Origin: Candidatus Ozemibacter sibiricus
Lineage (GTDB): Bacteria; Muiribacteriota; Ozemobacteria; Ozemobacterales; Ozemobacteraceae
Length of the DNA stretch: 44,644 nt
Direction: 5' to 3'
Assembly: GCA_003327425.1 (NCBI GenBank)
Contig: QOQW01000034.1
Span: 1-44,644, forward strand
Position numbers and translations under genes: made by a program. Numbering within the stretch: the first letter of the stretch is position 1; each line of letters begins with the position of its first letter. Positions 12,161-42,507 of this stretch are shown in pieces. The notes beneath the pieces were generated by a model. It was not told the origin of the DNA. It ran no database searches and saw only the letters and a program-made list of their open reading frames with translations.

Positions 12161-12197
12161 GGCTGGTGTCCTCCTCTAACAGGAATCCTTACCCGGC

Positions 12198-15734: not shown

Positions 15735-17120
15735 TCAGAACGAGGAATCGAAGGCGTTGTCGAACGCGTCGCCGGGCGTGCCGGCCGGCGGCTGCGCCGG
15801 CTGTTGGGGGGTGGAGGGCGGAGCGATCGATTCGCCGCCGGAGGGGGTCAGGGTGGTGGGGGCGGCTGATTCGATGCTCTGAGCGATGATGTGCGGGGTG
15901 ATGAGGATGATCAATTCCTGCGAGGAGCCGGTCTTGCCGGTGAAGTTGAAGAGGGATTTGATGATCGGGATGTTCCCCAGCAGGGGGATCTTATTGCGTT
16001 CCTTGGTCTCGTTGTCGCGGATCAAGCCGCCGATCAGGATCTCTTCGCCGTCCCGGACACGGATGGTGGTCTTGGCGGAGCGGGTGCCGATGACCGGATA
16101 CATGCCGTTGTTCGACCAGCTTTCCACGAAGGAGACTTCGGGTTCGGCATCGACGGTGATGTAGCCGTCGTCGTTGATGCGGGGGGTGATCTTCAGCTTG
16201 ATACCGGTGTCCTTTTCTTTGGGGGGTTGGTCGGCGCCACCGGGGTAGATGACCTTGGTGCCCACCACGATGTTGGCTTCCTGGCCATTCACCGCAGAGA
16301 TCTTGGGATTGCTCAGCACCTTGCTCTCGTTATGGGTCTCGAGGATGGCCAGGGTGGTTCGGAAGATCATATTGTCCCGATAGAAATCGCCCAGGCCGAA
16401 CAGAGCGCCCTGGGGGCGAGCGAATCCCTGTTGGTAGAGCGAAGAGTCAGGATTGTTCGCGAAGTATTCCTTGGTGCGGAAGACGGGAGCGCCGTTGAGG
16501 TCGGCCACGGTGTCCTCCAGACCGGCCTGCCATTTGAACCCGAGGTTCTTGGTGGCATTGGTGGTGACTTCGACGATCTTCGATTCGATCATGACCTGAT
16601 GGACGGGGGTGTCGATGGTCTCGATCAGTTTCTTCACCTCGTCCAGGATGTCCTTGCCGCCGGAGACGATGACCGCATTGATGCGGTCGTCGGTGGCGAC
16701 CTTGACGTCCTTCTTGATGGTCTGAGCGATGATCTTGCTGACGTCGGCGGCCTTGGCATACTGCAGCCGCTTGGTGATGGTCAGGCCCTTCTCGAAGGCC
16801 TCGATCAGCTTCTTCTCATCCGCCAGGATCCAGGTGTTGCCGATCTTGCGGACGGCGAACCCGTTGGTCTTGGCGATCAGGTTCATCGCTTCTTCGTAAT
16901 AGACGTCGTTCAGGCGCACGGTGACGTTGCCGCGGACGCTCTTCTCGGCGATGATGTTGGTGCCGGACTTCTGCGCGATGATCTTGATGATCTCACGGAT
17001 ATCCGTGTCGCGGAAATCGAGCGAGATATTGTCCTCGGCCACCGCCGAGGATGCCAGCAGCAGGACCCAGGCTGCCAGCACCAGGAAGAGAGTCTGTTTG
17101 GGGATGCCCGTGGAACTCAT
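15735..17120 (-). CDS. pilQ: Type IV pilus secretin PilQ
   Basis: A 461-residue secretin that should form the outer-membrane pore for the pilus. A signal peptide (1-28) is followed by an N0/STN-like domain (about 30-100: ISLDFRDTDIREIIKIIAQK), a secretin_N (N1) domain (about 110-175: RLQYAKAADVSKIIAQTI, INAVIVSGG) and the secretin barrel (about 180-430) with the VLSNPKISAVNGQEANIVVG segment and the ILIGGLIRDNETKERNKIPL ... LGNIPIIKSLF end. It is short for a PilQ: the AMIN domains of proteobacterial PilQ are absent. The C-terminus is a proline- and threonine-rich tail. The start overlaps the preceding pilP-like stop by four bases, and a terminator follows. Confidence 0.94.
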   Translation of the reverse strand: MSSTGIPKQTLFLVLAAWVLLLASSAVAEDNISLDFRDTDIREIIKIIAQKSGTNIIAEKSVRGNVTVRLNDVYYEEAMNLIAKTNGFAVRKIGNTWILADEKKLIEAFEKGLTITKRLQYAKAADVSKIIAQTIKKDVKVATDDRINAVIVSGGKDILDEVKKLIETIDTPVHQVMIESKIVEVTTNATKNLGFKWQAGLEDTVADLNGAPVFRTKEYFANNPDSSLYQQGFARPQGALFGLGDFYRDNMIFRTTLAILETHNESKVLSNPKISAVNGQEANIVVGTKVIYPGGADQPPKEKDTGIKLKITPRINDDGYITVDAEPEVSFVESWSNNGMYPVIGTRSAKTTIRVRDGEEILIGGLIRDNETKERNKIPLLGNIPIIKSLFNFTGKTGSSQELIILITPHIIAQSIESAAPTTLTPSGGESIAPPSTPQQPAQPPAGTPGDAFDNAFDSSF

Positions 17121-17680
17121 TCTTTTCCACCTCCGATCGGAAATGTCCGACGCATTTGTTCCCTGAAAGAATAGATGACAAGTCGATCAGCTAGTACATC
17201 GACAACTTTGAACTTTCCGTCCACCGTCATTTCTTTATGCACGACATATGGTTTGTTCTCGAAGATGATCATGGCCAGCCGTTCCGCATCATTGCCGCAG
17301 ATGCCCGAGACGGTCAGCACCAGCGGAGGGATGGGTTTGGGCTCGGAGGCCTGGGGAGGAGGAGGCTGGATGCGGATCGTTTTCTCTTCTTTCTTGGGTT
17401 CAGGCTTCTTGACCAGGGGTTTGAACGGGTCTTTCGCCTCGTTGGGAGGAGAGAAGCGATGGCGGTCGGCCAGGGCCTGGACCTGCGTCGGTTCTTCTTC
17501 CTGATCGGGAGGGACCACGGGAGGTTGGGGCAGGGGGAAGGAGGCGGTCATTTCCTCCTCGGAAGGTGGTTCTTCCTGAGCCAGACCGGGGCTGCCCATG
17601 CCCAGAAGCCCGATCAGAACGATGGGTGTGGCCAGGGCCAGACGCGAAATCCGGGACCAGGTTGCGGGAAGACGGGTCAT
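17117..17680 (-). CDS. pilP: PilP-like pilus assembly protein (copy 2)
   Basis: A 187-residue exported protein with a hydrophobic N-terminus (about 15-35), an acidic/proline-rich linker, an NEAKDPFKPLV motif typical of PilP-like proteins, a second proline-rich linker, and a C-terminal beta domain (VSGICGNDAERLAMIIFENK to the end). PilP links the inner-membrane PilMNO complex to the secretin PilQ. It is closely related to the gene just upstream; both end in MRRTFPIGGGKE. The pilQ start overlaps its stop. No lipobox was found. Confidence 0.85.
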   Translation of the reverse strand: MTRLPATWSRISRLALATPIVLIGLLGMGSPGLAQEEPPSEEEMTASFPLPQPPVVPPDQEEEPTQVQALADRHRFSPPNEAKDPFKPLVKKPEPKKEEKTIRIQPPPPQASEPKPIPPLVLTVSGICGNDAERLAMIIFENKPYVVHKEMTVDGKFKVVDVLADRLVIYSFREQMRRTFPIGGGKE

Positions 17681-17714
17681 GGCAGCCCCCTTTTCCGGCT
17701 CGGTGGCCGGGCGT

Positions 17715-18371
17715 TTATTCCTTGCCGCCCCCGATGGGGAAGGTGCGGCGCATCTGTTCCTTGTTCGAGTAGATGACCAGGCGGTCGGGCAGGATGTCGA
17801 CGACTTTGAACTTCCCGTCGACGACCATGTCCTTGGAAACGACGTAGGGCTTGTTTTCGAACATGATCATGGCCAGGCGTTCGTTGTCGTTGCCGCAGAT
17901 GCCAGAGACGAACAGCTGGATGGGCTTGGGGGGCGGCGGCGGGGGAGGCGCGGCCGGACCGGCAGGTTTGGGCGCCGGGGCGGGAGCGGGCGGCAGGACC
18001 ACCTTCTTGACGACCAAGGGTTTGAAGGGGTCTTTCGCCTCATTACCGGGCGAGAATTTGAATTTTCCGGCCAGGATTTCGACCTGTTCTGGTTCTTCGA
18101 GGTTGGCGGCCGGCGGAGAAGCTTCGTCGCTCCCGCCGCTGCCTGGATCTTCAGCATTTCCCGTGGTTTCCGTAGGCGATTCGGCAGGAGTGGTGGCGGT
18201 TTCCGCCGGGTCGGCGGGGGTCGCCCCCGGGTCGCTCGGGGTTGCCGATGCGCCGGAGTCGGCGGGCATGGAAAACTCGTCGGCTTCCTGGGCGGCCACG
18301 GGGTGGCCAGCGGGTGCCAGAAGCAGGAGGGCGGCGAGCCCCCAGATCGATATGAACCGTAGCGTCCTCAT
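17715..18371 (-). CDS. pilP: PilP-like pilus assembly protein (copy 1)
   Basis: A 218-residue paralogue of the next gene. It has a signal peptide (1-27), a low-complexity Ala/Pro/Thr/Glu region (about 30-90), NEAKDPFKPLVVKK, a run of prolines, and a C-terminal domain (about 150-218) nearly identical to its neighbour's, including GICGND, RLAMI-FENKPYVV and the shared last 12 residues. AAGGAGG precedes the ATG. The divergent linkers with a conserved beta domain suggest tandem duplication followed by linker drift. Both copies probably touch PilQ; they may form a hetero-oligomer or serve different pilus states (inference). Confidence 0.85.
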   Translation of the reverse strand: MRTLRFISIWGLAALLLLAPAGHPVAAQEADEFSMPADSGASATPSDPGATPADPAETATTPAESPTETTGNAEDPGSGGSDEASPPAANLEEPEQVEILAGKFKFSPGNEAKDPFKPLVVKKVVLPPAPAPAPKPAGPAAPPPPPPPKPIQLFVSGICGNDNERLAMIMFENKPYVVSKDMVVDGKFKVVDILPDRLVIYSNKEQMRRTFPIGGGKE

Positions 18372-18528
18372 GGTGTTTTCCTCCTTGCGCGCAAACGGTC
18401 GGCAGCATGAGCCTGCCGTGAGCAGCTCCGGTGGGTGCGGAGCCTCCTCAACGGTGACAACGGGTGCAGGTGGCAGTGGATTGGGAGCAGATGAGCCGGT
18501 GGGAGGGGAACCGCCGCGGACCGCGGCC

Positions 18529-19089
18529 TCAGTACCCGCCGCCCATGATGTAGACTTTGGCGTTCAGGGTGACGGTCAGCAGTGGGCTTTTCGACTTGGG
18601 ATCGGTTTCGGCCGACACCGAGATCGTGATCGATCCTGCCGCCAGGTTGATGATCTTGCGCTTCTCGCAGATGATCAGGAAGTTGCCAATGTCCTGGAAG
18701 GTGCCCAGCAGGCCGATTTCGACCGGCAGTTCCGACCACTGCTCGGCGCGCACCAGCGGCGAGATGCGGATATCCTGGAATTTGACGTTGAATTTGTTGG
18801 CGATGGCTTCGACGGAATCCAGGAGTTTGGGCACGACCGTATTCATCTGGTTGGATTCCATCTGCAGCTTGTTCTTCTCGGTGGTCAGCTTGGCGATGGC
18901 CTCGTTGATGCGGGCGATCTCGTCGGCGACGTTGCGGATTTCGTCTTTCTTGGCCTCGAGGCCTTTGATGTCCTGTTGGAGGCGGCCCCGCTCCTCTTCG
19001 GCGGGCTGCAGGTAGTAGATCCAGAAGACGCCGCCGGCCCCCGCCGCGGCCAGAACGATGATCAGGATGACAACGGCAAAGTTGTTCAT
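18529..19089 (-). CDS. pilO: Type IV pilus inner-membrane protein PilO
   Basis: A 186-residue bitopic inner-membrane protein: a transmembrane segment at residues 4-26, a periplasmic coiled coil (about 30-95), and a C-terminal ferredoxin-like domain (about 100-186) with the characteristic FQDIGNFLIICEKRKIINL region of PilO. With PilN it forms the heterodimer that connects cytoplasmic PilM to PilP and PilQ. It starts nine bases after the pilN stop, and 157 bases without a gene separate it from the first pilP-like gene. Confidence 0.9.
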   Translation of the reverse strand: MNNFAVVILIIVLAAAGAGGVFWIYYLQPAEEERGRLQQDIKGLEAKKDEIRNVADEIARINEAIAKLTTEKNKLQMESNQMNTVVPKLLDSVEAIANKFNVKFQDIRISPLVRAEQWSELPVEIGLLGTFQDIGNFLIICEKRKIINLAAGSITISVSAETDPKSKSPLLTVTLNAKVYIMGGGY

Positions 19090-19098
19090 GGTGGCCCC

Positions 19099-19689
19099 CT
19101 ATCTCGAACCGATGTCGCGCTTGATCCGGCAGGTGATATCGAACCGCCAGACGGGCACTTTCTCGTAGGTGTTCTTGTTGGCGTTGCTCAGGAACACCTC
19201 CTCGAAATAGGAATGCCCCTGGAGCTGCTTGATGAAGTTCTGGATGCCGCGGGTCAACTGGCCCGTGCTCTTCTTCCCTTCTTCTTCGCAAGCGTAGCCC
19301 GTGACCTGGACGCGGCGGTCGGAATCGATGCGCAGGTTGGTGATCCAGACGGTCTTTTCCGGAACCACCGTGGTCAACGCGCTGAACACCTCGGACCACT
19401 GCAGCAGATTGGCGCCTGACAACTGCTTGAGCTGCTCGATCTGCTGCTCGAGATTCCGTTTGTCCTGTTCGAGACGATCGCGCTGGTCGAGCTTGTCCTT
19501 GTCGCGGCGGACCTCGGCTTCCAGTTCCTCTTTCTGCTTCTTCAGGTCATCATTGTAGGTTTCGACCCAGATGGTGAGGAAGTAGAACGCGACCAGGATG
19601 CCCGCCAGGGCGATGACCAGGAAGATGGCCGCGAACGGGATCTGGATCGGCTTGCGCCGTTTGACGGTGATGAGATTGATTTTGATCAT
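19099..19689 (-). CDS. pilN: Type IV pilus inner-membrane protein PilN
   Basis: A 196-residue PilN. The short cytoplasmic N-terminus, MIKINLITVKRRK, matches the conserved INLLP-type peptide that docks into PilM, with the motif altered to INLITVKRR. A transmembrane helix spans about residues 18-42, a coiled coil about 45-90, and a periplasmic ferredoxin-like domain the rest (LTTVVPEKTVWITNLRIDSD onwards). GGAG precedes the ATG and only three bases separate it from pilM. Confidence 0.92.
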   Translation of the reverse strand: MIKINLITVKRRKPIQIPFAAIFLVIALAGILVAFYFLTIWVETYNDDLKKQKEELEAEVRRDKDKLDQRDRLEQDKRNLEQQIEQLKQLSGANLLQWSEVFSALTTVVPEKTVWITNLRIDSDRRVQVTGYACEEEGKKSTGQLTRGIQNFIKQLQGHSYFEEVFLSNANKNTYEKVPVWRFDITCRIKRDIGSR

Positions 19690-19692
19690 GGC

Positions 19693-20781
19693 TTACTCCT
19701 GCACCCCCCTTAGAGCCAGGCCGATCGCCACGGTGAACTGCTGGAGATTGTTGTAGAGCATATCGGTGTCGGGCACGGTCACGTTGATGCCCTCCAGCGG
19801 ATTGCCCATGTAGACATCGACGCCCAGCTCGTTGCTCAGGTAGGTGTTGAAACTCTTCAGGTTCGCCCCGCCCCCCGACAGGATGATCTTGTGGATCAGG
19901 GGTTCGCGGGACTGGGCCTTGAAATAGTCGAAGGAACGCCGGATTTCCGACGCCAGCTCCTCGACCGTGTTCTTCACCACGTCGGCGATCTCGTTGCCGC
20001 CGGTATCCCCGATGGCGACCTCGGCCTCCTGGAGCTTGATGCTCTCGGCCTGGTCGAATTCCTGTTTCATGACGTTCATGATCATCTGGGTGATGTTGTT
20101 GCCCGCAATGGGGATGTTGCGGGTGAACATCAGGATGCCCGATTTGAGGACCGAGATGTTGGTGGTGCGGGCCCCGGTATCGATGATGGCGACGACCTCC
20201 CCGCCCTCCTGGGTGCCGGCCGTCTGCATGATCGAGTTCTCGAGGGCATTGATGGCCGCGATGGTGTCGACATCGATCACCTCGGGGATGATCCCTCCTC
20301 CTTTGAGGACCTCGGTGTAGCTGTTGACCAGCTCTTTCTGGGCCACGACCAGGAGGATCGAGTATTTGCCCCCGCCTTCTTCTTCGGTGATTTCGTTGAG
20401 GACCGCGTGGGTGATGCTCACTTCATCGATGGCATAGGGAACATACTGTTCGGCCTCGATGCGGACCGTCTGTTCGAGTTCTTCAGGGGTCATCACCGGC
20501 AGCTTGGTGAAGCGCATGATGACGTTCTGGCCCGAGATCGAGGCGAAACTCCGCTCGGGGCGGATCTTGGCATTCTTCAGCATCTCCTTGATCACCGCCG
20601 AGACGGTCTGGGGATCTTTGATGTTCCCTTCCTCGACGGCGGAATGCGGCAAGGGGGCCATGGCGTAATTGATCAGCTCAGGCCCGGTGGGGGTTTTCTT
20701 GAGCTGAACCGCCTTGACCGAGGAGGTGCCGATATCGATCCCCAATGAGGTATTACTGCTCCCGAAGGTAAACAACCCCAT
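19693..20781 (-). CDS. pilM: Type IV pilus actin-like protein PilM
   Basis: A 362-residue cytoplasmic actin-fold ATPase of the PilM/FtsA family. Visible nucleotide-binding segments are phosphate 1 (LGIDIGTSSVKAVQL, about 13-27), phosphate 2 (VVAIIDTGARTTNISVL) and the adenosine motif (IILSGGGANLKSF). PilM binds the N-terminal peptide of PilN and transmits motor state across the membrane. It is first in the cluster, with AAGGAG seven bases before the ATG. Motor ATPases (PilB, PilT) and PilC are not in the window. Confidence 0.96.
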   Translation of the reverse strand: MGLFTFGSSNTSLGIDIGTSSVKAVQLKKTPTGPELINYAMAPLPHSAVEEGNIKDPQTVSAVIKEMLKNAKIRPERSFASISGQNVIMRFTKLPVMTPEELEQTVRIEAEQYVPYAIDEVSITHAVLNEITEEEGGGKYSILLVVAQKELVNSYTEVLKGGGIIPEVIDVDTIAAINALENSIMQTAGTQEGGEVVAIIDTGARTTNISVLKSGILMFTRNIPIAGNNITQMIMNVMKQEFDQAESIKLQEAEVAIGDTGGNEIADVVKNTVEELASEIRRSFDYFKAQSREPLIHKIILSGGGANLKSFNTYLSNELGVDVYMGNPLEGINVTVPDTDMLYNNLQQFTVAIGLALRGVQE

Positions 20782-23202: not shown

Positions 23203-23234
23203 GGAAAAAGGCCCGCCTCGCGACGAGGCGGGCC
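23203..23234 (-). terminator. Rho-independent terminator of the giant-protein operon
   Basis: A stem of 10-11 bp (GCCCGCCTCG at 23211-23220 with CGAGGCGGGC at 23224-23233) has a 3-base loop and, on the minus strand, CTTTTTCC after it. It lies 40 bases past the stop at 23274. Confidence 0.88.
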
Positions 23235-23273: not shown

Positions 23274-24083
23274 TCAGGGAGTCTGCCTCAGGCTCTTATC
23301 GAGGGTGCGCACCGTCATACGGGTTTCGAACAGTGGCAGGGTAGTCAGGACCGTTCGAGTATTCGGGGCGGGAGAAGGAACAGCCGGATAGAGAGCCCGT
23401 TTGGTCGTGGTCCAGCCGTTGGGGTTGTTGGTGGCGGGATCTACCAGATAGGTCCAGTCGAGGGCGTTGTCGCTCGCTTCCATGGTTACGGGGAAGGCCA
23501 TGGGGAACCTTCCTTTGATCCCCCGGAACAGGCCGAGCGTGGCGCTCGGTGTCGCGGTGACAGGGGGCCACTGGAAGGAGGATTTCGCTGTCACGGTATC
23601 GGTCTCTTCGTCGGGGCGGATGATCTTGATGGTCACCGTATTGGTGGCGAGCCCAGCGTTGTCGGAAACTCCGGACCAGAACTCGAATTCGACGTTCTCT
23701 TCGAAATAGTTGGGGGTGATGCCGGCCTCGATCTGCGTTTTGAGCGGAACGTCAGCGAACGGTCCCACGATGTCGCTGTTGAGCGATTTGAGCATGTACA
23801 ACGGAGGAATGGTGCCGGGCACGCGGCCGGTATCGTCGGCTTTCCAGATGGGGTCGCGATTGACGAATTGCGGATCGAGGGAGATGGCGATATTCTTGAG
23901 GTCCTTGCCATCGGTGGGGAAGAACTGCGGGGCGGTGCGTTGATTGGGGAACCCGCGTTCCGAATCAGGAATATTTTTCAGATCGCGGATGGTGAACCAG
24001 GGATAGGGCGGGATATTGTCGCGAATGTTGAGCACGAGGTTCAGCGGTTGCACGTCAGAGACATTCCCCGAGCTGTCGCACAT
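23274..24083 (-). CDS. C-terminal part of the giant secreted protein, after an in-frame TAG
   Basis: A 269-residue frame in exactly the same phase as the 1,241-residue gene upstream, separated only by one TAG (24090-24092) and two codons. It starts in mid-domain: CDSSGNVSDVQPL and IRDNIPPYPWF look like an Ig- or cadherin-like repeat, and GVSDNAGLATNTVTIKI is a second one. No signal peptide is present, so as a separate product it could not be exported normally. Its ATG has only a weak AGG five bases upstream, overlapping the stop, so reinitiation is possible but likely poor. The likeliest readings are a recent nonsense mutation or sequencing error in one 1,513-codon gene; readthrough is the third. 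No frameshift or other decay is seen beyond the stop. Confidence 0.75.
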   Translation of the reverse strand: MCDSSGNVSDVQPLNLVLNIRDNIPPYPWFTIRDLKNIPDSERGFPNQRTAPQFFPTDGKDLKNIAISLDPQFVNRDPIWKADDTGRVPGTIPPLYMLKSLNSDIVGPFADVPLKTQIEAGITPNYFEENVEFEFWSGVSDNAGLATNTVTIKIIRPDEETDTVTAKSSFQWPPVTATPSATLGLFRGIKGRFPMAFPVTMEASDNALDWTYLVDPATNNPNGWTTTKRALYPAVPSPAPNTRTVLTTLPLFETRMTVRTLDKSLRQTP

Positions 24084-24089
24084 CTGAAC

Positions 24090-27000
24090 CTAGAATGGCA
24101 GGGGGGCATAGCCTGGAGTGTTGTTGGCATAGTTCAGAGGAACGTTCCGCGTCTGCCCTGGACCGAAGAAGAGCTTATCGATGGGGATGGTGAATTGCAT
24201 GAAGGAGTCGGCCGTGTCTTCGTAGGTGGCGAAGGCGCCCCGCGGGGTGTTGAGGGCCATGAACGAGAGGAAGGTGTCGGGGTTGGCCCCGCGGCCGTAG
24301 GTATTGTAGTCTTCGAACCCTGTCGTAGCGGGGACCAGGTTGACGGCATGGTTGCCGGGCTGGTTGGTGGAATAGGAAAGATTAGTCCAGCGGCGGGCCC
24401 GCGAGAAGACCGGCTTCAGGTTGTAGCGGGAATCCTTGGGGTGATCGCGGAGAATGGTCGCATTGTAGGCGGCGTTCGCCTCTGACTGGGCGATGGACAG
24501 GCCTTCTCTGTTCGAGTTTTCCCAGGGGTTGTTGTCGCGGACGACGAATTTGATGGCGCCGGGGTTGGCTCGCCCCGCCGGTCCGATGCCTTCGGCCAGC
24601 GGTTCGCCGGTGAAGGCGAACAGGTTGCGAGGCATGGTGAATTCCTGGTCGAGGGTGGGAGCCGAGTTGTCGATCGCCAGGATCTTGGTGCTGGCGGTGA
24701 TGGTGATGGGCCGGTCATACCAGCGAGAGCCGACGAAATACTCGATCTTGGTGCCGTCGGCCAGGATCTTGGTGCGCTTGGTGTACATCAGATACTGGGC
24801 GACCCGTTTGGCGGTGATGACCAGCGTGTAGTACTCGGGGTCGGAAGGCAGATCGATGACGCCGAAACTGTAGGTCGCCACCGTCGACTGGACGGTGTTC
24901 TGGCCGAAAATCATGCGTTTCTGTTCGGTGCCATTGGGGTATTTCGCGATGATATACCCTTCGAACGTGGCGGAATCGTTCTTCCAGCGCAGATCGCCCT
25001 TCAGATTGCGGAAGACGTAGTTGGGATCGGAGTTGACGAAGTAGGGACTGTTCGGGTCGAGCAATTGCTTGGCGACGTAGTTGAAGCCAGGGGTGGGATA
25101 GCCGGCAGTCGGGTTGGGATTGGGGTATTGATCGATGGGGAAGAAGATATTGGCTTGCGAGGCGATGGCCATGCGCCATCCATATTCGCGGCCGGCCAGG
25201 ATGCCGTGGTATCCCTCGGCATCGTGGTTGCACCAATAGGCGTCGTCGTTGGCTTTGGATTTGTTGTCGCAGCGTTCGATCGGGGCCAGTTCGACCGGGG
25301 CGGTGGGAATGACATCTTTGAAGGCCACGCAGATGGGAATGGCCGCCCAGGTATCATCGGGGATGATCTCATCCAGGTAGGCGGACATCGTGGCCTGATT
25401 CATGAACTTGAACCGAGGATCGTTGAGGATTTTGGAGATCTGGGCCTGTTTGCCGACCGAGAGGGCCTTGGTGCCATATTTGGCGTATTTGAACCGGTCG
25501 GCATACATGGTGCCGAAGGGCATTTCGTCGAAATTGAACCAGTCGTACGTAGCCTGACAGGTCAGGATGTACTTTCCGCCCACCGGTGAATAGAACAAAT
25601 AGGAATGGTCCATGTCAGTGGGGTTGGGATAGGTTGGTGGAGGCGTCTCGGGATCGGGAGTGGGGGTGGCGATGCTTTCCTTTTCTTTGACGCTGGGGTC
25701 GAGGTTCAGATAACTGACCTGCCAGAGCCGCCACCGATAGAAGATCCTGCCAGGGTCGGACGGGTTGGAGGAGGAGTTGGGGTTGGTGATGGTGGTGACA
25801 AATCCGCCTGTGAAGCCATCGCCATCCCAGTCTGGTTGTTCGAGAGGGTTCTGTTGAACGGGTGAGAGTGGGTAGTTTTCAACCATGAACCAGTAGTCGG
25901 TGGATGGTTCGAGTTCAGTATTCTCTGGGAGAAGGCCAGCACCTTGGTTGGTGCTGAGTTCTTCTGGCTTTTCCTTCGGGGGGTCTTTGTAGGGGCCGAT
26001 GAGGTCGAGGTGCGACACGTACCCAGGGAACGCCAGGGGTTTGGGGGGCGTGGGGATGTTGATGGCCGCCAGTTGGGTGAGATTGGGAGGACTGAGATTG
26101 TCGACATACTGCGGGCCTGCCACGGTCCAGCCGAGCCACACGCCACCCGTGGCGATCAGGTTCGCTCCGAAATTGGTGAATGGCGCCTTGGACAGGACCG
26201 GCCAGGCGGCCCCTGGCATACGGAAGGAGCGGGCGAAATACTTGTAGCCGATGGCTTTTTCCCCGACCGGGCGAGTCTTGCCGTCGGTGATGCGACGTTC
26301 GAACACGGTCTTGGTGAATTTCTGGGCGAAGATGGCCCGGCCGAACACGACGCTGGGGTAGATGCTATCGCCGATGACGTCGATCACGTCGGTGTCGGGA
26401 TTGAAGACGGTGCGGGGATCGGCGGGGGAGGGCTCGCGGACGGTCTTGGCGAAATACAGGCTGCCGAACCCGTCGGCTTTGATGTCATCGATGTCGCTGC
26501 CCAGGTCGAGAGTTTCGAAATCGAGGCTGGAGATCGGCGGCGATTGGTTTTCTTTGCGGATGAATTTGTAGACCAGGCCCTGGGTCTTGTCGTAGGCGAA
26601 CACGATGCCGCCCTGCTGGTTCCATTGGTTGGAAACGGTGACAGCTTCGATGCTGAACCCCGGCGGGGGGTCTTTGGCGGTGCACTGCTTGTACCACTCG
26701 CCGATGACGCGGGAGCCGAGGCAGTAGACGAAATCGGTCGTTCTATCGCGAAGGGAAACGCCCAGCCAGCGCGTACCCTTGGCGGTCGGGCTGGCGACGT
26801 CGGCCGGATAGCCGATCAGGGGATTGCCGGGGGTGGGGATATAATTGGCGGGCAGACCGGCGCCGACCGCCAGGGTGATGGTATAGAAGCTGGAATCTTC
26901 TTCGCGGGAATAGAAATAGGTGCGGGACGGGCTGCCGCCCACGGGGGGCATGAACGCCAGACTGGTGAACATCGGTTTGGCATCGCCCGAGCCGCTGCCG

Positions 27001-27815
27001 CTGGCCCCTCCGCATCCGTCGAGGCAGCCATTGAGGATCTTGCGGGTCCATTTCACGTCGTAGCTGGTGCCGACCGTGTTGGTTTCTTGCGGCCCCACCA
27101 TGCCGTCTTTCCAGATGTTGAGCTTCCATTCGTGGGAGCGCCCTTCCATGGAATCCTTGAAGACCTTGTAGGAGACAGGGAATTTGCCGACGGCGCTGAC
27201 CGTCTGCCAGGAGGAATACCAGGCCCCATTCGGGATGGAATACCAGTTGCGACCGGGGAAGACGGGGTCCTGGACGCCATTGATGATGGGGAGCGGATTG
27301 CCTGCGGGAGGGGGGATAGGCGTGCCAGGGCCGCCCGAGGTGAAATAGGGCCAGGTGCCGGAGTGGGCCCGGATGGCGCGGCCGGCTGGGCCGGTACGAT
27401 ACACGGGTTTGGTGGTTTCCCCCGTTCCGCGATGGTCGTAGTGGATGTAGGCGTGGTAGCCCCAGTCGGCCTGGTTGGCGGTGACGCCATCATCCAGGAC
27501 CTGCCGGGGAATGTTCACATTGAGCAGGGTATAGGTTTTGCCGACTTTCTCGGAAAAGGTATAGACGGTGCGGTAGAGGTCGACCGCGATGCCGGCGCTC
27601 GAGCCAGGATTGTAGAGGTAGCCCAGTTTCAGCCCTTCCCCGGCAGGATCGCTGAGGCGATAGACCCCTTTGTAGAGGCCGTCGCCGAGCAGCAGATAGA
27701 CCTCGCCGTTGCGGTTGTATTCGAGCGCGAGGCCGAGCAGCTGCGGGGCGATGCCGAGGAAGCACCCCAGGGCGACGAGAGGGAAGAGCCATCGGATCTG
27801 GCGTGTCGTCATCAT
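24090..27815 (-). CDS. Giant secreted protein in a minor-pilin operon, PilY1-like by position
   Basis: A 1,241-residue exported protein with a signal peptide (about 1-30) and no other clear membrane segment. I do not recognise a named family over its length. The first half has repeated beta segments such as VYLLLGDGLYKGVYRLS, GIAVDLYRTVYTF and a DDIKADGFGSLYFAKTV stretch, compatible with a beta-propeller. A calcium-loop-like PDWDGDGFTGGF lies near residue 650. The last third has Ig-like strands (ITASTKILAIDNSAPTL, KFVVRDNNPW). Cysteines are few and often paired (CLDGCGG). GAGGAGG precedes the tandem ATG. It follows three prepilin genes and a Skp-like gene, the place PilY1 holds in minor-pilin operons, so a pilus-tip adhesin or surface cargo is my best inference. 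The frame probably once continued past the TAG to 23274. Confidence 0.8.
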   Translation of the reverse strand: MMTTRQIRWLFPLVALGCFLGIAPQLLGLALEYNRNGEVYLLLGDGLYKGVYRLSDPAGEGLKLGYLYNPGSSAGIAVDLYRTVYTFSEKVGKTYTLLNVNIPRQVLDDGVTANQADWGYHAYIHYDHRGTGETTKPVYRTGPAGRAIRAHSGTWPYFTSGGPGTPIPPPAGNPLPIINGVQDPVFPGRNWYSIPNGAWYSSWQTVSAVGKFPVSYKVFKDSMEGRSHEWKLNIWKDGMVGPQETNTVGTSYDVKWTRKILNGCLDGCGGASGSGSGDAKPMFTSLAFMPPVGGSPSRTYFYSREEDSSFYTITLAVGAGLPANYIPTPGNPLIGYPADVASPTAKGTRWLGVSLRDRTTDFVYCLGSRVIGEWYKQCTAKDPPPGFSIEAVTVSNQWNQQGGIVFAYDKTQGLVYKFIRKENQSPPISSLDFETLDLGSDIDDIKADGFGSLYFAKTVREPSPADPRTVFNPDTDVIDVIGDSIYPSVVFGRAIFAQKFTKTVFERRITDGKTRPVGEKAIGYKYFARSFRMPGAAWPVLSKAPFTNFGANLIATGGVWLGWTVAGPQYVDNLSPPNLTQLAAINIPTPPKPLAFPGYVSHLDLIGPYKDPPKEKPEELSTNQGAGLLPENTELEPSTDYWFMVENYPLSPVQQNPLEQPDWDGDGFTGGFVTTITNPNSSSNPSDPGRIFYRWRLWQVSYLNLDPSVKEKESIATPTPDPETPPPTYPNPTDMDHSYLFYSPVGGKYILTCQATYDWFNFDEMPFGTMYADRFKYAKYGTKALSVGKQAQISKILNDPRFKFMNQATMSAYLDEIIPDDTWAAIPICVAFKDVIPTAPVELAPIERCDNKSKANDDAYWCNHDAEGYHGILAGREYGWRMAIASQANIFFPIDQYPNPNPTAGYPTPGFNYVAKQLLDPNSPYFVNSDPNYVFRNLKGDLRWKNDSATFEGYIIAKYPNGTEQKRMIFGQNTVQSTVATYSFGVIDLPSDPEYYTLVITAKRVAQYLMYTKRTKILADGTKIEYFVGSRWYDRPITITASTKILAIDNSAPTLDQEFTMPRNLFAFTGEPLAEGIGPAGRANPGAIKFVVRDNNPWENSNREGLSIAQSEANAAYNATILRDHPKDSRYNLKPVFSRARRWTNLSYSTNQPGNHAVNLVPATTGFEDYNTYGRGANPDTFLSFMALNTPRGAFATYEDTADSFMQFTIPIDKLFFGPGQTRNVPLNYANNTPGYAPLPF

Positions 27816-27846
27816 ACCCTACCTCCTCTTGATGCCGGATGGACGG

Positions 27847-28842
27847 TCAATTGGCCGCGTGGATGGCCTCCAGGATGATGCCTTGGATGCGGGCCTCGAT
27901 CTTGTACTGGTCGAGAATGGCTTTCATCACTTCGGCGGTGAGGTCGATCCCGCCGGTGACGACGAAGGACTGCTGGAGCATCGGCTGGAACGGGTGCAGG
28001 ATGGTGGCGCGATGGCGGTACCACCCCTCGGCCCGGCTCTTCTGCAGGTCGTAGAATCCGGTGATGGCGGGGGGATCGTTTTCGAGACCGGCGGGCGGTT
28101 TCTGGGCGAGCACCTCGCCGTATTCGAAGGCCGACGACAGATCGGGAGGGCGGTTCGACTCGGGAGGGAAGGCGAGGCGGCTCAGTCCGGAGTCGAGCAC
28201 GGCAGCCACGCCTCGATTGGCCGCCACCTGCTGGGTGAGGCGCTGGACCTCGGCGAAGATGGCGGCGAACCGCTGTTGGGTTTCTTCGGGCGAGGTGTAC
28301 CGGGAAGGCAGGCTGGCCCCCAACTCTTTGTTGATGGCTTCCTGAAGTTGCGAAGCCTGGATCTGGAGCGCCCGCATCTGGCTGGTGAAGCGAACCGACA
28401 GACTGTTCATGCGGATGTTGTGGCGATGGGTCTCGAGGTGGGCAGCGCCAGTGGCCAACCCTGGCAGCTTAGCATCGAAGGCGGCCTGGGCTTCTCGGGT
28501 CTCGGCATCGAATTGGGCACGCAATTCGTTCATCCGGGTGTCGAGGCCCTGCAATTTCTCTTCCAGTTCTTTGATGCGGGCTTTGTTCACTTCCTGGCGC
28601 CGGGGCGGCTCGGTCGGAAGGGCCGCAGGGGTTTTGAGGAAGGCCCGATTGAAGGGGTCGTAGGTCGCCATGGCGGGATGGAAGACCAGCAGGGTCAGCA
28701 GGTCGACGGTGCCGATCACCGGGGGCGCGACCTTGGCAGGGGCGGGGGCCGGGGCGGCGGACCCCGTCGCAGACGCGGCGAGCAGCAACAGCGGCAGCAG
28801 CGAGACAACCAGGCGAGGGTGCGACCGAGCGGGGCGGGGCAT
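27847..28842 (-). CDS. Skp/OmpH-like periplasmic protein (copy A)
   Basis: A 331-residue exported protein: signal peptide (about 8-30), an Ala/Pro linker, then a Skp/OmpH-like pattern. A first strand (PVIGTVDLLTLLVFHPAMAT) is followed by a long coiled coil (about 85-215), a segment with AEVQRLTQQVAANRGVAAVL, and a closing strand-helix VVTGGIDLTAEVMKAILDQY. Skp is a trimeric chaperone that holds unfolded outer-membrane proteins. This one is twice the usual length. Similar genes lie at 30980-31975 and 31986-32828. ATG at 28842 is chosen because AGGAGG is six bases upstream; the frame also opens at 28860, overlapping the prepilin gene. A dedicated chaperone for the giant protein encoded next is inferred. 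Confidence 0.75.
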   Translation of the reverse strand: MPRPARSHPRLVVSLLPLLLLAASATGSAAPAPAPAKVAPPVIGTVDLLTLLVFHPAMATYDPFNRAFLKTPAALPTEPPRRQEVNKARIKELEEKLQGLDTRMNELRAQFDAETREAQAAFDAKLPGLATGAAHLETHRHNIRMNSLSVRFTSQMRALQIQASQLQEAINKELGASLPSRYTSPEETQQRFAAIFAEVQRLTQQVAANRGVAAVLDSGLSRLAFPPESNRPPDLSSAFEYGEVLAQKPPAGLENDPPAITGFYDLQKSRAEGWYRHRATILHPFQPMLQQSFVVTGGIDLTAEVMKAILDQYKIEARIQGIILEAIHAAN

Positions 28843-28856
28843 GGAGTTCCTCCTGA

Positions 28857-29351
28857 TCATTTGATCACCTCGCGTTTGACGGAGATGATCTTGACAACGG
28901 TCTTGTCGATATTTTTGCCGGTTTGATTGTTGACATAGGAGACGTTGGCCTCGATGCGCAGGGCTTCCTGGTTCCAGCGCGAATCGGTGAGCAGAGCCAT
29001 GCTGGCAATGGCCACAGAGATCTTTTGATTGGTGAAGGTGGAGCTGGCCAGGTCAAAATCGACCATGCGCAAATTCGGGTCATTGATGGCAAATTCTTTG
29101 AGATACTGGGGATGGCCGAGTTCATGGGCGCGCCAGGCGGCATAGAATTCCCCAGGGTAGAGCTGGAATTTGAGGATGGCCTTGTCGATCAAGCCCTGGG
29201 CCAGGAGGTCGTATTTGGCAGCCTCTTCGAGCTGCAGGGTCTGAGGTTTGCTGATGCGCAGCATCCCGCTGTAGGTGATGGCCATCTGCAGCAGAAGCAC
29301 CGAAAAGATCAGGGCCATGATCAACGCGGTTCCTCGTTTGTTCATGTTCAT
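28857..29351 (-). CDS. PilX-like minor pilin protein
   Basis: A 164-residue protein with a short basic N-terminus, MNMNKRGTALIMALIFSVLL, and a hydrophobic helix through about residue 30, then a mixed domain. The lack of the FTLIE cleavage motif but presence of an RG-x-A-L-I-M-A-L start resembles PilX and GspK-type minor pseudopilins. It is third in the PilW-PilV-PilX order. The ATG at 29351, two bases after the previous stop, is preceded by GGTGGA; a second ATG two codons later is possible. The frame further upstream overlaps the PilV-like gene and is rejected. The product is likely a tip-complex subunit. Confidence 0.8.
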   Translation of the reverse strand: MNMNKRGTALIMALIFSVLLLQMAITYSGMLRISKPQTLQLEEAAKYDLLAQGLIDKAILKFQLYPGEFYAAWRAHELGHPQYLKEFAINDPNLRMVDFDLASSTFTNQKISVAIASMALLTDSRWNQEALRIEANVSYVNNQTGKNIDKTVVKIISVKREVIK

Positions 29352-29353
29352 GG

Positions 29354-29956
29354 TCAGTCCACCAAGCGCGCCTTGAAGGAGGCCAGACTGTAGAACCGGG
29401 GACCTCGGCGGGAATCGTTCCAACGGATGATGATCAGGTAGCGATGGTAGTGGTTGGTCAGTTCGCTCTTGGGCAGTTCGAGTGGGGGGTCTGCCCACCC
29501 CCAGCGGGTTGGGTCATTGGAATCGGAGGCCTTCAGGGGGGGGGAATAGACGGGAACCCTGAATTTCACCGGCAGATCGGTGATCTGGAGTTCGGCCGTA
29601 CAGGTCAGCCGCTTCTCGGACAACGGGCCCAGCCTCAGCGTGAGGTTTCCGCTCGGGCTTTTATAGGAGAAGGGGGTCGCGCCGCCCAAGGTCCAGGTGG
29701 GGCCGGAGCCGCCCGCTTGCGCGGGAAGCTCGTTGAAAGGGAATTGGAGGGCGGTGTTGAGGAGGGTCTGGGCGAGATGGACGGCGGTGATGACCTCTTC
29801 GTCTTTCTGGGTGCCTTCGATCGACGTGCCCATGACTCCGATGATGGGCAGGAAGGCCAGCGCCAGGAGGAACAAGGCCAGAACGATTTCGGTCAGGCTG
29901 AACCCCCCGGGGCTCCGGGTAATCGGTCTGGAATGGGATCTGAAGACAACGTCCAC
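29354..29956 (-). CDS. PilV-like minor prepilin
   Basis: About 200 residues. An 18-residue leader ends in SPGG, followed by FSLTEIVLALFLLALAFLPI: a prepilin peptidase site with Glu at mature position 5 and a membrane helix. The rest is a beta-rich globular domain with DLPVKFRVPVYSPPL and a YLIIIRWNDSRRGPRFYSLA end. GTG at 29956 is preferred: it begins one base after the stop of the PilW-like gene (TGAGGTG) and has GGAG nine bases upstream. Longer frames back to 30019 would give an unusually long leader. Minor pilins of this kind prime pilus assembly and carry the tip protein. Confidence 0.82.
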   Translation of the reverse strand: MDVVFRSHSRPITRSPGGFSLTEIVLALFLLALAFLPIIGVMGTSIEGTQKDEEVITAVHLAQTLLNTALQFPFNELPAQAGGSGPTWTLGGATPFSYKSPSGNLTLRLGPLSEKRLTCTAELQITDLPVKFRVPVYSPPLKASDSNDPTRWGWADPPLELPKSELTNHYHRYLIIIRWNDSRRGPRFYSLASFKARLVD

Positions 29957-29957
29957 C

Positions 29958-30758
29958 TCAAAAATCTCCGAGGTTGGGGTAGGAATGGATCGGGACATCG
30001 GGGGAAATCCGGGCTTCAACGGTCTGGTTGAAAATGGTCGGGGGATGATCAGGATTGCGGAAGGCGACGGTCAGACCAAGGGTTTTGCCTCCTGGTTCGA
30101 GCCCGGTTCCTGAGGCGGTAGCCCAGGAAATGGTGATCGATGCCACGTCAGAAAGTTCGATCTGGAATTCTTCAGGACCGAGTTGATAGTCGGCGGGAAG
30201 GGCGGAAAAGCCTGCCGGGGTGAGGGACCCGAAATCGGGAGGAAAATTGACGGTGGTGGTCATGCTGGCCGAAGGGAGCGTCGTGGCGTGGAGCTGGAGT
30301 TCGCCCGTGCCCTGCCGGCGAGGGACAAGCCACAGCACGTGCGGCAATCGCAAGCCTTTGGGGCCGTTGATCTTGGGATGGGTGAGATCGGGCTTGCAAA
30401 CGGTGAATGCCATCACCTTCTCGGGTCTGGCGGCAGGGGTGAAGGAAACCCCGCTCTGAAGGGTATGGATCGGAGCAGCAACGGTGACGACCTGTTTGGA
30501 GGACTCCTGGTCAGGATCGATGCGAGTCAAGTTGGTGGCTTGTTCGAGGCGGCTTTTCAAAACCGCGAGGAACCGCTCTGCTTCTTTTTGTTTGTTGAGT
30601 TTCCAGCTTCCTGAGAGGAACATATTGGCCCCTGAACGGTACAGCAAGAATACCCCGCCCAAGAATAGCGAAAAGAGACCGGAAGCGACCAAAAGCTCAA
30701 TCAAGGTGAATCCTCGCGGACGAGCACTCCATCGGAAAAAGAGACCGAAGCGTTCCAT
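29958..30758 (-). CDS. PilW-like minor prepilin
   Basis: A 266-residue prepilin. A 16-residue leader with basic residues ends in RPRG; cleavage is expected before FTLIELLVASGLFSLFLGGV, with the conserved Glu. The helix continues into a coiled segment (SWKLNKQKEAERFLAVLKSR) and a large beta domain. The size and place at the head of the operon match PilW. There is no Shine-Dalgarno site. Instead, a TGC-TATAAT promoter stands six bases before the ATG, which would make the message leaderless. Confidence 0.85.
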   Translation of the reverse strand: MERFGLFFRWSARPRGFTLIELLVASGLFSLFLGGVFLLYRSGANMFLSGSWKLNKQKEAERFLAVLKSRLEQATNLTRIDPDQESSKQVVTVAAPIHTLQSGVSFTPAARPEKVMAFTVCKPDLTHPKINGPKGLRLPHVLWLVPRRQGTGELQLHATTLPSASMTTTVNFPPDFGSLTPAGFSALPADYQLGPEEFQIELSDVASITISWATASGTGLEPGGKTLGLTVAFRNPDHPPTIFNQTVEARISPDVPIHSYPNLGDF

Positions 30759-30979: not shown

Positions 30980-31975
30980 TCATGGCTCGCCTCGTCGCAG
31001 GAAGCGGGGATCGCGCTCGCTCAGCGCCCTGAGCAGGGTGGATAGGACATCGGGGGGGAGATTGTATTTCTGGAAAAGGCGTGTGATGACTTCGAACGTG
31101 AGATCCTGTCCGCCCTGGATCACCATGGGGTGGGGGCGGATTTCCCGTACAACGGGGTAGGCGGGATGGCGGGTCAGGTCGAGCCACCGTGCCAGCCGCT
31201 GGGAGGGTGGGGTGACGGTCGGATCGGTGGAGGCAGGGTGGCTGGCCAGAAAGGCGTAGTACAGGTCTACGGTGGGAAAGTCGGCTCCATGGCCGATCAG
31301 AGGCGCCGCCGTCGGGGGTGGAGGGGAGGCGAGGGGGAGGCTGCGATTGAGAACCGCGGCGAGGCGCAGTTCGGCTGCCACGCTGGCGATGATCGCGAGC
31401 ACCTCGGTTTCGATCTCGGCGAGAATGGCTCGCGTCTCGGCGGGGGAGGTCAGGTCGGGATGGTCGCGCCGGAATTCGAGGTCCTGGCGTTGGCGCTGGA
31501 GAGCTTCGAGCGTTGCGGTCAAGGAAGCAAGTCGGTGATCGCCGCGACCGGGAGGGTGAGCGTCGGATGCTCGCAGGAGTTCCACCCGCTGTTCTTCAAG
31601 GATGGCGGCCTGGGAGGCGAGGGTGGCAAGAGCGGCCGTCAAGGTGGCGGGGGGGGAGCCGACCTCGGCCTGTAGAGCCATCAGACGCCTTTGCCATTCC
31701 TCCGGGCGGAGGCCGAGCGGCAAGCGGTAGAAGCCCAGACGTTCGCCGTCGAACAGGGCGAGACGGGGATGGACCAGGATGACGGTGACCAGGTCGACCA
31801 CTCCGATCTGGAGATGGGGCGCCTGGCTGGCCGAGGTGGGCGGGGGCTCGGCGGGTGCGGGGGACGCGGCGGGTGGGGATCCGGCCTGGAGGGCCGACCC
31901 GATGGCCAGCGTCGTCAGAAGAAGCAGGGCGAGCAGCGACGGCCGAGAGCGGGAGGGGAGGGTCGGGGCGCGCAT
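30980..31975 (-). CDS. Skp/OmpH-like periplasmic protein (copy B)
   Basis: A 331-residue exported protein, the same length as copy A. It has a signal peptide (about 12-31), a Pro/Ala linker, the IGVVDLVTVILVHPRLALFD start, a heptad-rich helical region (about 85-220) with DLTSPAETRAILAEIETEVL followed by VAAELRLAAVLNRSLPLA, and the closing VIQGGQDLTFEVITRLFQKY. The end matches the D-x-T-x-x-V strand-helix of Skp/OmpH. GAGG lies eight bases before the ATG; the open frame continues upstream only through the previous gene. It follows copy C by ten bases. There is no recognisable terminator with a T-run after it. Confidence 0.72.
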   Translation of the reverse strand: MRAPTLPSRSRPSLLALLLLTTLAIGSALQAGSPPAASPAPAEPPPTSASQAPHLQIGVVDLVTVILVHPRLALFDGERLGFYRLPLGLRPEEWQRRLMALQAEVGSPPATLTAALATLASQAAILEEQRVELLRASDAHPPGRGDHRLASLTATLEALQRQRQDLEFRRDHPDLTSPAETRAILAEIETEVLAIIASVAAELRLAAVLNRSLPLASPPPPTAAPLIGHGADFPTVDLYYAFLASHPASTDPTVTPPSQRLARWLDLTRHPAYPVVREIRPHPMVIQGGQDLTFEVITRLFQKYNLPPDVLSTLLRALSERDPRFLRRGEP

Positions 31976-31985: not shown

Positions 31986-32828
31986 TCAGCGGGGGGGTAG
32001 GGGGAACAGGATCGGTTCCCGCAGCAGGGGGAACAGAGGGCGCAGGGTCGTGGCCTGGCTGGCATAGGCGGAGAGCCAGCAAGGATCGCCGGTGGCCAGG
32101 AACCACCACCAGGAATTGCCGCGCCAGATCTCGGGATCGGGAGGCGTGGACGGGGCAATCCCGGGCAGAAGATTCAGGAAAATGGGGAGAGAGGGCAGGT
32201 TAGGCCTGGCCGTGGGATCGGATCGGAAGTCGGGGTGTGATGGTGAGCTGACCGAGGGGGATGCCATCGCTCCTGCAGGGGCAGGCCAGGAGTCTGCAAG
32301 GATCTGGCGGATCTGCGGCAGGATGCTGGCGGGATCGGTCCGTCCGCCGTGCTCGAGGCGGGCCTGCCAGGCGGCTTCTTCGGCCGCCAGCGCCGCCTCT
32401 GCGGGCGCGGCGCTCTGCAGCTGGGTCCAGAACGCCTCTTCGGCAGCGGAGGCGAGGTCGTCGGACGCGGCGCCGAGGGCGCGGCTGATCAGGTCGCGGG
32501 TCTGACGCTCCCGCTGGTGGCGGGCGGCGCGGAGGCGGGCGAGGGTGGCGGCGATGGAGGCGGGGTCGACGAACGCGCTGGGGGTGCCGGCGAACCGTCG
32601 GGTGGCTGGATCGAAGCGGCCGGTCAAGGGATGGGAGGCGATGCGGGACAGGAGGTCGAACCGCTGGAACAGCGGGGGCTGCCCGGACACACGGGCCGGG
32701 CCGGCCGCGAGAAGAACGAGCAGGGCGATCGCCAGGCGGATCGTGTGGCTGAACGGTCGTTCGACGTGAGGTGAAGCGGGCGTCGCGAAAGAACGGGGCC
32801 GGGCCGCCGGGTGAGAGGCACTCGTCAT
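31986..32828 (-). CDS. Skp/OmpH-related exported protein (copy C, divergent)
   Basis: A 280-residue exported protein. After a signal segment (about 28-48) it has QRFDLLSRIASHPLTGRFDP, plainly related to the D-L ... H-P ... F-D start of copies A and B, then an alanine-rich helical region with heptads (about 75-165). The conserved closing D-L-T segment of A and B is not seen; the last 90 residues are proline- and tryptophan-rich (EIWRGNSWWWFLATGDPCWL). It may have changed role. The ATG overlaps the previous stop by four bases (ATGA). Confidence 0.65.
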   Translation of the reverse strand: MTSASHPAARPRSFATPASPHVERPFSHTIRLAIALLVLLAAGPARVSGQPPLFQRFDLLSRIASHPLTGRFDPATRRFAGTPSAFVDPASIAATLARLRAARHQRERQTRDLISRALGAASDDLASAAEEAFWTQLQSAAPAEAALAAEEAAWQARLEHGGRTDPASILPQIRQILADSWPAPAGAMASPSVSSPSHPDFRSDPTARPNLPSLPIFLNLLPGIAPSTPPDPEIWRGNSWWWFLATGDPCWLSAYASQATTLRPLFPLLREPILFPLPPR

Positions 32829-33685
32829 GGGGTGGGATCCGGCAGCGGAGGGATATCGTCGGATTGCGGCACCTGGGGAATGACCCGGCGCGGGGCGAGG
32901 CATTCGCGAGCCAGGAGGTTCTCTACCAAGGTCGGGTTTTCGAACAGGCCCAAAGGGTGGCCGTGCACAGGGAAAACCGTGAGGGCGATGATGTGACCAG
33001 GCAGGGGAACCAGGTGAAAGGTGCACGACACCCAGGTCAGTGAGGGGAATTCGCTGGCCCAGGGGAGGTCGGTGGCCGGCAGGATGGCTCGGGTGCGGGC
33101 TTCCTGGGCGAGAACGAGGAGGAAGCAATTGCCGCGGGAGTTCCGGTCGCGGTAGAGCACGAAGCGGAATCGGATCTGGTCGAGCCGCAGCAGGAGGGGG
33201 GCCGGGCGTGGCATCTGCAACGTGCGAGCGGTGGCCAGCAACGACCCGGCGGGGTCGAGCAGGCGGAGGGGCCAGGCGGGATGGAGCAGGCGGCCGAGCA
33301 GGAAGGCGAGCCAGGGCCGGGCGTCAGGCGTGGGCGCCAGCAGGTGGAGGCCCGAGGTGGCCGAGGCCAGGCCTTCCGAGGCGAAGCGGTCGACCTCCGC
33401 TGTCAGGATCAGAGGAGCGGCGAGCGGGATGGTCACGCTCAGGGCTGGTTCCCAGGCGTGCTCGGCCAGGGTGCAGGAAAAGGCGGGGGGCGGCGGAACG
33501 ACCGCCAGCCGCAGAAAGAAGGAAAGGAAGAGCGGCCATCGGAAGAGAAGGCGCAGAACCCCGGCCGGGGGCGAGGCTCGCGGCGCATGGCGGCGCGGAA
33601 CCGATGGCGGGCGTGCGCCGCCGGGAGGTTGAGGCGCTTTGGGAAGGACCGGCGTGGCAGGAAAAATGCTCCAGGCGGTGATCAT
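32825..33685 (-). CDS. Hypothetical exported or membrane protein
   Basis: A 286-residue protein I do not recognise. A proline/arginine-rich N-terminus (1-40) leads to one hydrophobic segment (about 42-65: VLRLLFRWPLFLSFFLRLAV), then a beta-rich part with many leucines (PLLLRLDQIRFRFVLYRDRN; WVSCTFHLVPLPGHIIALTV) and a proline-rich tail. Two cysteines follow the hydrophobic segment early on. It is translationally coupled on both sides: its ATG overlaps the miaB stop and its stop overlaps copy C. Co-expression with the Skp-like genes suggests an envelope role. Confidence 0.6.
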   Translation of the reverse strand: MITAWSIFPATPVLPKAPQPPGGARPPSVPRRHAPRASPPAGVLRLLFRWPLFLSFFLRLAVVPPPPAFSCTLAEHAWEPALSVTIPLAAPLILTAEVDRFASEGLASATSGLHLLAPTPDARPWLAFLLGRLLHPAWPLRLLDPAGSLLATARTLQMPRPAPLLLRLDQIRFRFVLYRDRNSRGNCFLLVLAQEARTRAILPATDLPWASEFPSLTWVSCTFHLVPLPGHIIALTVFPVHGHPLGLFENPTLVENLLARECLAPRRVIPQVPQSDDIPPLPDPTP

Positions 33686-42326: not shown

Positions 42327-42356
42327 GGTACCACCCGGTGGCCGGTTGCCAGAGGC

Positions 42357-42385: not shown

Positions 42386-42507
42386 TGGGAGCGCGGTAAC
42401 CAGGGTCAAGCGAGTTCGAGGCGCCGCTCAGGAAAGGCCGGCCTTCTGTCGAAAGAGGAAAGCAGAACTGAACCGAAATCCTCGGGAGAGAGGATCGATT
42501 CCAAGTC

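Follow-up and report, generated by a model that had tools for sequence, protein, structure and literature searches.

Introduction

In type IVa pili, the usual large protein at the tip is PilY1. In Myxococcus xanthus, multiple clusters encoding minor pilins together with PilY1 are present (PMC7541494), and in cluster 1 the gene of TfcP lies directly upstream of pilY1.1, with TfcP stabilising PilY1.1 in the periplasm and itself staying outside the pilus (PMC8833165, PMC13190605). Here, we analyse a related kind of cassette in a stretch of 44,644 nucleotides from Candidatus Ozemibacter sibiricus (contig QOQW01000034.1, our contig C38; the whole stretch is hereafter called the window), the minus strand of which encodes three minor-pilin-like proteins, Skp-like proteins and a giant secreted protein. 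The cassette is a real, recurrent and, in the literature that we searched, undescribed variant of the minor-pilin/tip-protein cassette, with the giant alone being of a new kind.

The host genome (G000) has a size of 5.68 Mb, and the closest named relative of the giant belongs to a metagenome-assembled genome (MAG) of Candidatus Ozemobacteraceae, a family which we take to belong to the phylum Riflebacteria. The genome panel comprised 40 Riflebacteria genomes (17 of high quality) and 342 genomes of other bacteria. The regions around the giants were read in about 30 genomes, with the gene labels taken from profiles by similarity only, position being ignored. The profile sets include A1 for the giant family, A2 for Skp-like protein 1 and A4 for the Skp-like protein 2 orthologues. 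Genomes, loci and families are denoted by G, L and f numbers, respectively.

Results

Recurrence and rearrangement of the cassette

Among the 66 giants whose upstream side is visible, 58 are immediately preceded on the same strand by a Skp-like gene and 36 by two, while at 49 the run, with gaps under 400 nucleotides, includes minor-pilin genes. Some of the exceptions are split or edge cases. Because so many loci repeat the adjacency, the association is not a matter of chance. It should be noted that the giant loci share ancestry and the three counts are not independent trials; the rearrangement of the cassette is therefore a better argument than the counts. Three layouts are seen: W-V-X-Skp-giant, V-X-W-Skp-Skp-giant and Skp-Skp-giant-V-X-W, where W, V and X stand for the PilW-, PilV- and PilX-like genes. 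In a tree of 62 full giants, made from an alignment based on a hidden Markov model (HMM) with FastTree, the layouts fall mostly into separate, well-supported clades, implying that the genes have been re-clustered, not merely left together. The pilin genes are upstream or downstream depending on the clade, while the Skp-like gene adjoins the giant gene, just upstream of it, in all layouts. Since the Skp-like gene stays there while the pilin genes move, the tightest bond is that between the Skp-like gene and the giant gene, and the Skp link is more basic than the pilin link.

A first-pass annotation of the window had placed a Skp-like gene next to the giant gene within a minor-pilin operon. The adjacency is thus recurrent, whereas the company of the pilins is only partly general: it is present at the 49 loci, but f4, f5 and f6 mostly lack adjacent pilin genes, as do a few copies in Ozemobacteraceae.

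The unit in the window

The unit consists of the following features, in the order of reading on the minus strand.

32825..33685, minus strand: orfD, a secreted-protein gene outside known families, first of the conserved eight-gene order
31986..32828, minus strand: Skp-like protein 3 (short), aligning with Skp-like proteins 1 and 2
30980..31975, minus strand: Skp-like protein 2, matching profile A2 (E 1e-19)
29958..30758, minus strand: PilW/GspJ-like minor pilin, with PF07963 N_methyl (E 1.8e-06) and TIGR02532 both over cut-off
29354..29998, minus strand: PilV/GspI-like minor pilin, with weak N_methyl and conserved position
28857..29351, minus strand: PilX/GspK-like minor pilin, by N-terminus, conserved position and weak GspK matches in relatives
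27847..28860, minus strand: Skp-like protein 1, immediately preceding the giant (PF03938 E 0.0011)
24090..27815, minus strand: giant secreted protein, the portion before an in-frame TAG, 1241 amino acids (aa), family A1
23274..24089, minus strand: giant frame beyond the TAG, 271 aa, homologous to intact giants
23210..23234, minus strand: intrinsic terminator closing the unit, a strong hairpin with an 11-pair stem and a T-run

The five genes from the pilW-like gene to the giant gene and the terminator, as described in the first-pass annotation, are present in that order on the minus strand, but the conserved set is larger, with three more genes upstream, two of them Skp-like, giving eight in total. 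This eight-gene order is also present at five further loci (L035, L036, L041, L045 and L050), where the five-gene order recurs as part of it. Homologues of orfD, which has no Pfam or NCBIfam match, occupy the matching position at these five loci and at L046 and L053. At L039 (G001:C53), in a genome of the same genus, miaB is directly followed by Skp-like 1 and the giant, with no orfD, no other Skp-like genes and no pilin trio.

The start codon of the Skp-like 3 gene overlaps the orfD stop codon, and a short gap separates it from the Skp-like 2 gene; further on, the stop of the PilV-like gene overlaps the start of the PilX-like gene, which in turn is overlapped by the Skp-like 1 gene. Directly 5' of pilW there is a gap of 221 nucleotides containing an extended -10-like element, TGCTATAAT, just before the ATG, and thus the stretch from pilW to the giant could be a separate transcript with a putative promoter of its own.

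Relationship of the Skp-like proteins to Skp

Taken alone, the window protein that was first called Skp-like matches PF03938 weakly (E=0.0011, below cut-off), and the call is secured only by its relatives and by the profiles. For relatives of Skp-like 1, 7 of 30 match PF03938 at E<=0.01 (best 3.1e-06), and Skp-like 2 of L041 and L045 as well as a cassette relative in L058 are over the curated PF03938 cut-off. Against canonical Skp, hhalign gives a probability of 96.5 (E 8e-10) for A2 and of 96.8 for A4, scores that are partly inflated by the coiled coil making up a large share of the alignment; against the PDB, the A2 profile gives coiled-coil matches only. Since the profile and Pfam evidence ties the cassette proteins to canonical Skp, they are judged to be its relatives.

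The housekeeping Skp, of about 190 aa and with a strong PF03938 match, is a separate gene in nearly every Riflebacteria genome. The cassette proteins, of about 220-480 aa, have diverged from it, having an insertion before the DLT helix and an HPxM signature after the first strand, while their C-terminal GGxDLT matches the GGxDIT of Riflebacterial Skp. Skp-like 3 has the N-terminal pattern D-L...HP...D...F in common with Skp-like 1 and 2; the C-terminal GGxDLT is missing from it in the alignment, and alone it matches no Pfam or NCBIfam family. An AlphaFold2 (AF2) model of the window Skp-like 1, aligned with its two window paralogues, has a predicted local distance difference test score (pLDDT) of 70 and the Skp-type order of strand, helix, long helical hairpin, helix and strand. 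The weak foldseek matches of the model include the Skp chains 1sg2, 1u2m and 4kqt and SkpA of the type IX secretion system (T9SS), 8gl8.

The giant family and the probable absence of PilY1

The giant, which the first-pass annotation had left unrecognised, is indeed without a match: no Pfam family matches it or its 27 relatives (28 members), no NCBIfam family matches the window giant, and a PDB search with profile A1 is empty up to E 10. By profile, the family is present in 36 of the 40 Riflebacteria genomes, including 17 of the 17 of high quality, a single genome having at most 10 matches. The 342 other genomes give one marginal match (E 4.3e-4, G083:C104:6972-7451). Because the matches in f3, f4, f5 and f7 are weak and partial, membership appears secure in Ozemobacteraceae and f6 only, and elsewhere it is supported mainly by the Skp-like neighbours. 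Judged by these matches, the family is phylum-wide and consists of secreted proteins, mostly of about 1400-1900 aa, that currently lack annotation. In Ozemobacteraceae, full-length giants measure about 1350-1870 aa, and outside this family lengths of up to about 2200 aa are seen; the N-terminus is like a signal peptide, and the invariant residues include N36-G37 (in an RNGE motif) and C264.

PilY1 (PF05567) was found in 0 of the 40 Riflebacteria genomes. A PilY1-like protein of G053 (vWA plus propeller-type sequence), serving as the positive control, matched PF05567, though weakly, and none of 14 named control genomes gave a positive. PilY1 is thus likely absent from Riflebacteria, but a very diverged form may still be present. 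In plasmids, the control PilY1 retrieved six records, all weak. Membership of the giant itself in PilY1 was considered and rejected, the C-terminal domain PF05567 being undetected in the 28 members and hhalign showing no similarity (probability 0.5 percent for A1 against the PilY1 of G053). Every sequence test (Pfam, profile, hhalign) thus agrees with the earlier suggestion that the giant is from a family other than PilY1. What the giant has in common with PilY1 is that it is encoded with PilV/W/X-type pilins, at 49 of the 66 loci, which is a functional analogy and not homology.

The interrupted frame of the window giant

An in-frame TAG at 24092-24090 divides the giant gene of the window into open reading frames of 1241 and 269 aa, which together form one frame of about 1513 codons. 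It is because of this TAG that two lengths, 3.7-4.5 kb, had been given for the gene: a single frame does extend across that span, but it is interrupted. The nearest relative (L001) is open at the position of the TAG through to the matching end, and the alignment to the family profile continues across it. The ratio of nonsynonymous to synonymous substitution rates (dN/dS) against the nearest relative is 0.17 after the TAG and 0.08 before it, and, for comparison, the neighbouring queH has 0.17. In the window, TAG serves as a normal stop codon, ending 2 of 31 genes, and no pyrrolysyl-tRNA synthetase (PylS) over cut-off is present in the host genome. A reading of the TAG as pyrrolysine or another sense codon was rejected on these two grounds. 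Also rejected was a TAG held in common with the same-genus genome G001, where the gene simply terminates at its TAG.

With an ordinary stop, no PylS and an open relative, the window copy is either recently truncated or the result of an assembly error, intact copies being the rule. Unless the stop is an assembly error, the product in the window would lack the conserved C-terminal 271 residues. It seems to us improbable that the copy is a pseudogene in decay that now lacks a function: the in-frame TAG, the stop codon usage and the lack of PylS speak for it, but the frame beyond the stop continues without damage to the expected end and is under constraint, the other genes around it in the set keep open frames, and an error of the MAG consensus is possible. 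The finding on the family, moreover, is independent of the state of this copy.

The minor-pilin trio and the surroundings of the unit

No specific PilV, PilW or PilX family model of Pfam or NCBIfam is matched by the trio over cut-off, and the labels PilW-, PilV- and PilX-like denote only position and general type. The earlier calls of the three as prepilins hold to different degrees. The PilW-like protein is over cut-off for a prepilin family and the PilV-like one matches weakly, its NCBIfam matches (XpsI/ComGE/PilV/GspI) all being below cut-off; N_methyl is matched by 20 of 29 PilV/PilW relatives, so that the type III signal, with its N-methylation motif, is present for these two types. The PilX-like protein, by contrast, matches neither N_methyl nor any Pfam or NCBIfam pilin family over cut-off; at its N-terminus, RG is followed by a hydrophobic segment and a Glu5-type motif is lacking, and weak matches to GspK are given by 3 of its 26 relatives, the best at E 3.3e-4.

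The host genome is very rich in pilins, with 72 N_methyl and 28 T2SSE-type ATPase matches over cut-off. The window has 0 tRNA genes and 0 Rfam families. PilM and PilQ-type secretin genes are located at 15735-20781 of the window, 2.5 kb downstream of the giant gene and behind queH and a SpoIID-domain gene, with unmatched genes occupying the pilN-O-P positions between them. Near the pilus genes, at 8039-13196, there is a flagellar row of two FlgE/F/G-type rod genes, an FlgA-type chaperone gene, FlgH and FlgI. At 37596-42938, a HEAT-repeat protein of 1780 aa is encoded, a relative of which is found near the giants at L050 and L066. At L125 and L126 (G031 and G035, family f5), a protein of 618-626 aa with a prepilin-type N-terminus, possibly a large modular pilin, is encoded near the Skp-giant pairs.

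Discussion

We propose a model in which a multi-copy, Riflebacteria-specific cassette would build the tip of a type IV pilus (or pseudopilus), replacing the minor-pilin/PilY1 cassette. In the model, the PilW-, PilV- and PilX-like minor pilins would form the tip or priming complex, while one to three dedicated Skp-like proteins would act on the giant in the periplasm, holding or folding it until it joins that complex. The giant would then sit on the complex, leave with it through the secretin and act as an adhesin or tip effector, and several cassettes per genome could give pili with different tips. The position of the window cassette upstream of pilM and a PilQ-type secretin gene counts for such a pilus tip. 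Since the M. xanthus cassettes follow the same logic with different parts, we give an even chance to the giant being the tip protein, with the Skp-like proteins dedicated to holding or folding it. In our best reading, the giant would represent a new family of tip proteins similar in role to PilY1 and would be matured by its Skp-like partners. Gene content, order and recurrence, the relatedness to Skp, the signal-like N-termini and the failure to detect PilY1 are observed, whereas we infer the surface role and tip location, the adhesion, the export route, the chaperone activity and the fold. A more specific version, which we regard as rather unlikely, is that two or three Skp paralogues would form a hetero-oligomeric periplasmic cage or clamp for one giant and dock it on the minor-pilin tip complex, giving a chaperone-guided, Riflebacteria-specific loading independent of PilY1.

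Several points weigh against the model. The giant has no assigned fold, no relative in the PDB or Pfam and no profile similarity to PilY1, and an AF2 model of its 758 N-terminal residues from the single sequence is uninformative (pLDDT 33). For the Skp-like 1 model, foldseek finds no match at E<=0.001. The divergence of the giant correlates with that of the adjacent Skp-like protein (Mantel r 0.89, 0 of 2000 permutations), a point in favour of the model, but one that co-inheritance alone would also produce. In f4 (G026), f5 (G027, G031, G035) and f6 (G028), the Skp-giant pair is mostly without adjacent pilins, and thus the basic job of the giant may not involve pilins. Finally, no experimental data on Riflebacteria were found in the searched literature.

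The main rival is that the Skp-like proteins are structural parts, with a trimer, perhaps of mixed paralogues, clamping or scaffolding the giant or the pilus machine. The SkpA of T9SS, a Skp homologue with a C-terminal extension, is a structural element of the translocon and is needed for the export of the SprB adhesin (PMC10994853); the enlargement of the cassette proteins relative to Skp, their insertion before the DLT helix and the two or three distinct paralogues per giant would be consistent with such a role. We nevertheless consider it unlikely, since no further conserved outer-membrane channel component was identified in the cassette, where the unlabelled genes were not systematically examined. 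Another alternative is that the Skp-giant pair is an independent envelope or surface system, with the proximity to pilins having arisen secondarily in Ozemobacteraceae. The pilin-less pairs of f4, f5 and f6 and of Ozemobacteraceae copies such as L053, L058 and L039, the last from the genus of the window and without the trio, are what this would predict. By contrast, the trio accompanies the giant in most Ozemobacteraceae copies, in three layouts, and the pilin profiles, trained mainly on Ozemobacteraceae, may miss diverged trios in other families, making the independent system quite unlikely. A further possibility, in our judgement doubtful, is that the giant is an exoprotein, either soluble or released at the surface, and is pushed out as the substrate of a pseudopilus like that of the type II secretion system (T2SS), with the trio being GspI/J/K-like. 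In NCBIfam, the trio has GspI/XpsI, GspH/GspJ, ComG and GspK among its best matches, all weak, the genome has many T2SSE-type ATPases, and PilY1.3 has itself been proposed as an analogue of T2SS substrates (PMC7541494); however, the window cassette stands beside pilM and a PilQ-type secretin gene, which fits type IVa machinery, and no GspC/L/M context is seen within the window.

If the giant is a tip protein, the cassettes would offer concrete cases for how huge folded proteins cross the periplasm to the pilus tip. The lack of detected PilY1 in a phylum that has numerous cassettes with another giant suggests a tip position open to unrelated proteins, and the dedicated Skp-like genes suggest a recruitment of Skp to serve one particular client.

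Comparison with known systems

With Skp/OmpH (PF03938), the cassette proteins share the signal peptide and, as predicted, the N-terminal strand and the long helical hairpin, and with Riflebacterial Skp in particular they share the VA..(K)G...VLDS segment and the C-terminal GGxD(L/I)T motif. They differ in being larger, in the inserted segment and the HPxM signature, in that most of them are below the Pfam cut-off, and in that their genes accompany the giant gene and are separate from the housekeeping copy. The SkpA of T9SS in Flavobacterium johnsoniae (PMC10994853) is also an enlarged Skp homologue supporting the export of a giant adhesin, and there, too, two Skp paralogues are encoded together; the F. 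johnsoniae SkpA is part of the SprA translocon, whereas no T9SS gene is seen in the cassette, T9SS components being unsearched genome-wide.

A further comparison is that with M. xanthus. The first-pass annotation knew of no precedent for a chaperone gene in such an operon, and in the searched literature no paper links Skp with PilY1 or minor pilins; with Skp the arrangement is thus undescribed, but tfcP upstream of pilY1.1 is comparable (PMC8833165; PMC13190605). As differences, no FimU-like fourth pilin was identified in the cassette, the giant is not detectably a PilY1, and Skp-like genes take the place of TfcP, which is a noncanonical cytochrome c working via calcium binding. By contrast, M. 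xanthus clusters 1-3 and the cassettes are alike in occurring as several unlinked copies per genome (PMC7541494, PMC13190605), in combining PilV/W/X-type pilins with one very large secreted protein and, in some cases, in having an accessory gene inside the cluster. In cluster 1 the likeness extends to the arrangement itself: within a minor-pilin operon, the gene directly before that of the large tip protein is for a periplasmic accessory protein (PMC8833165).

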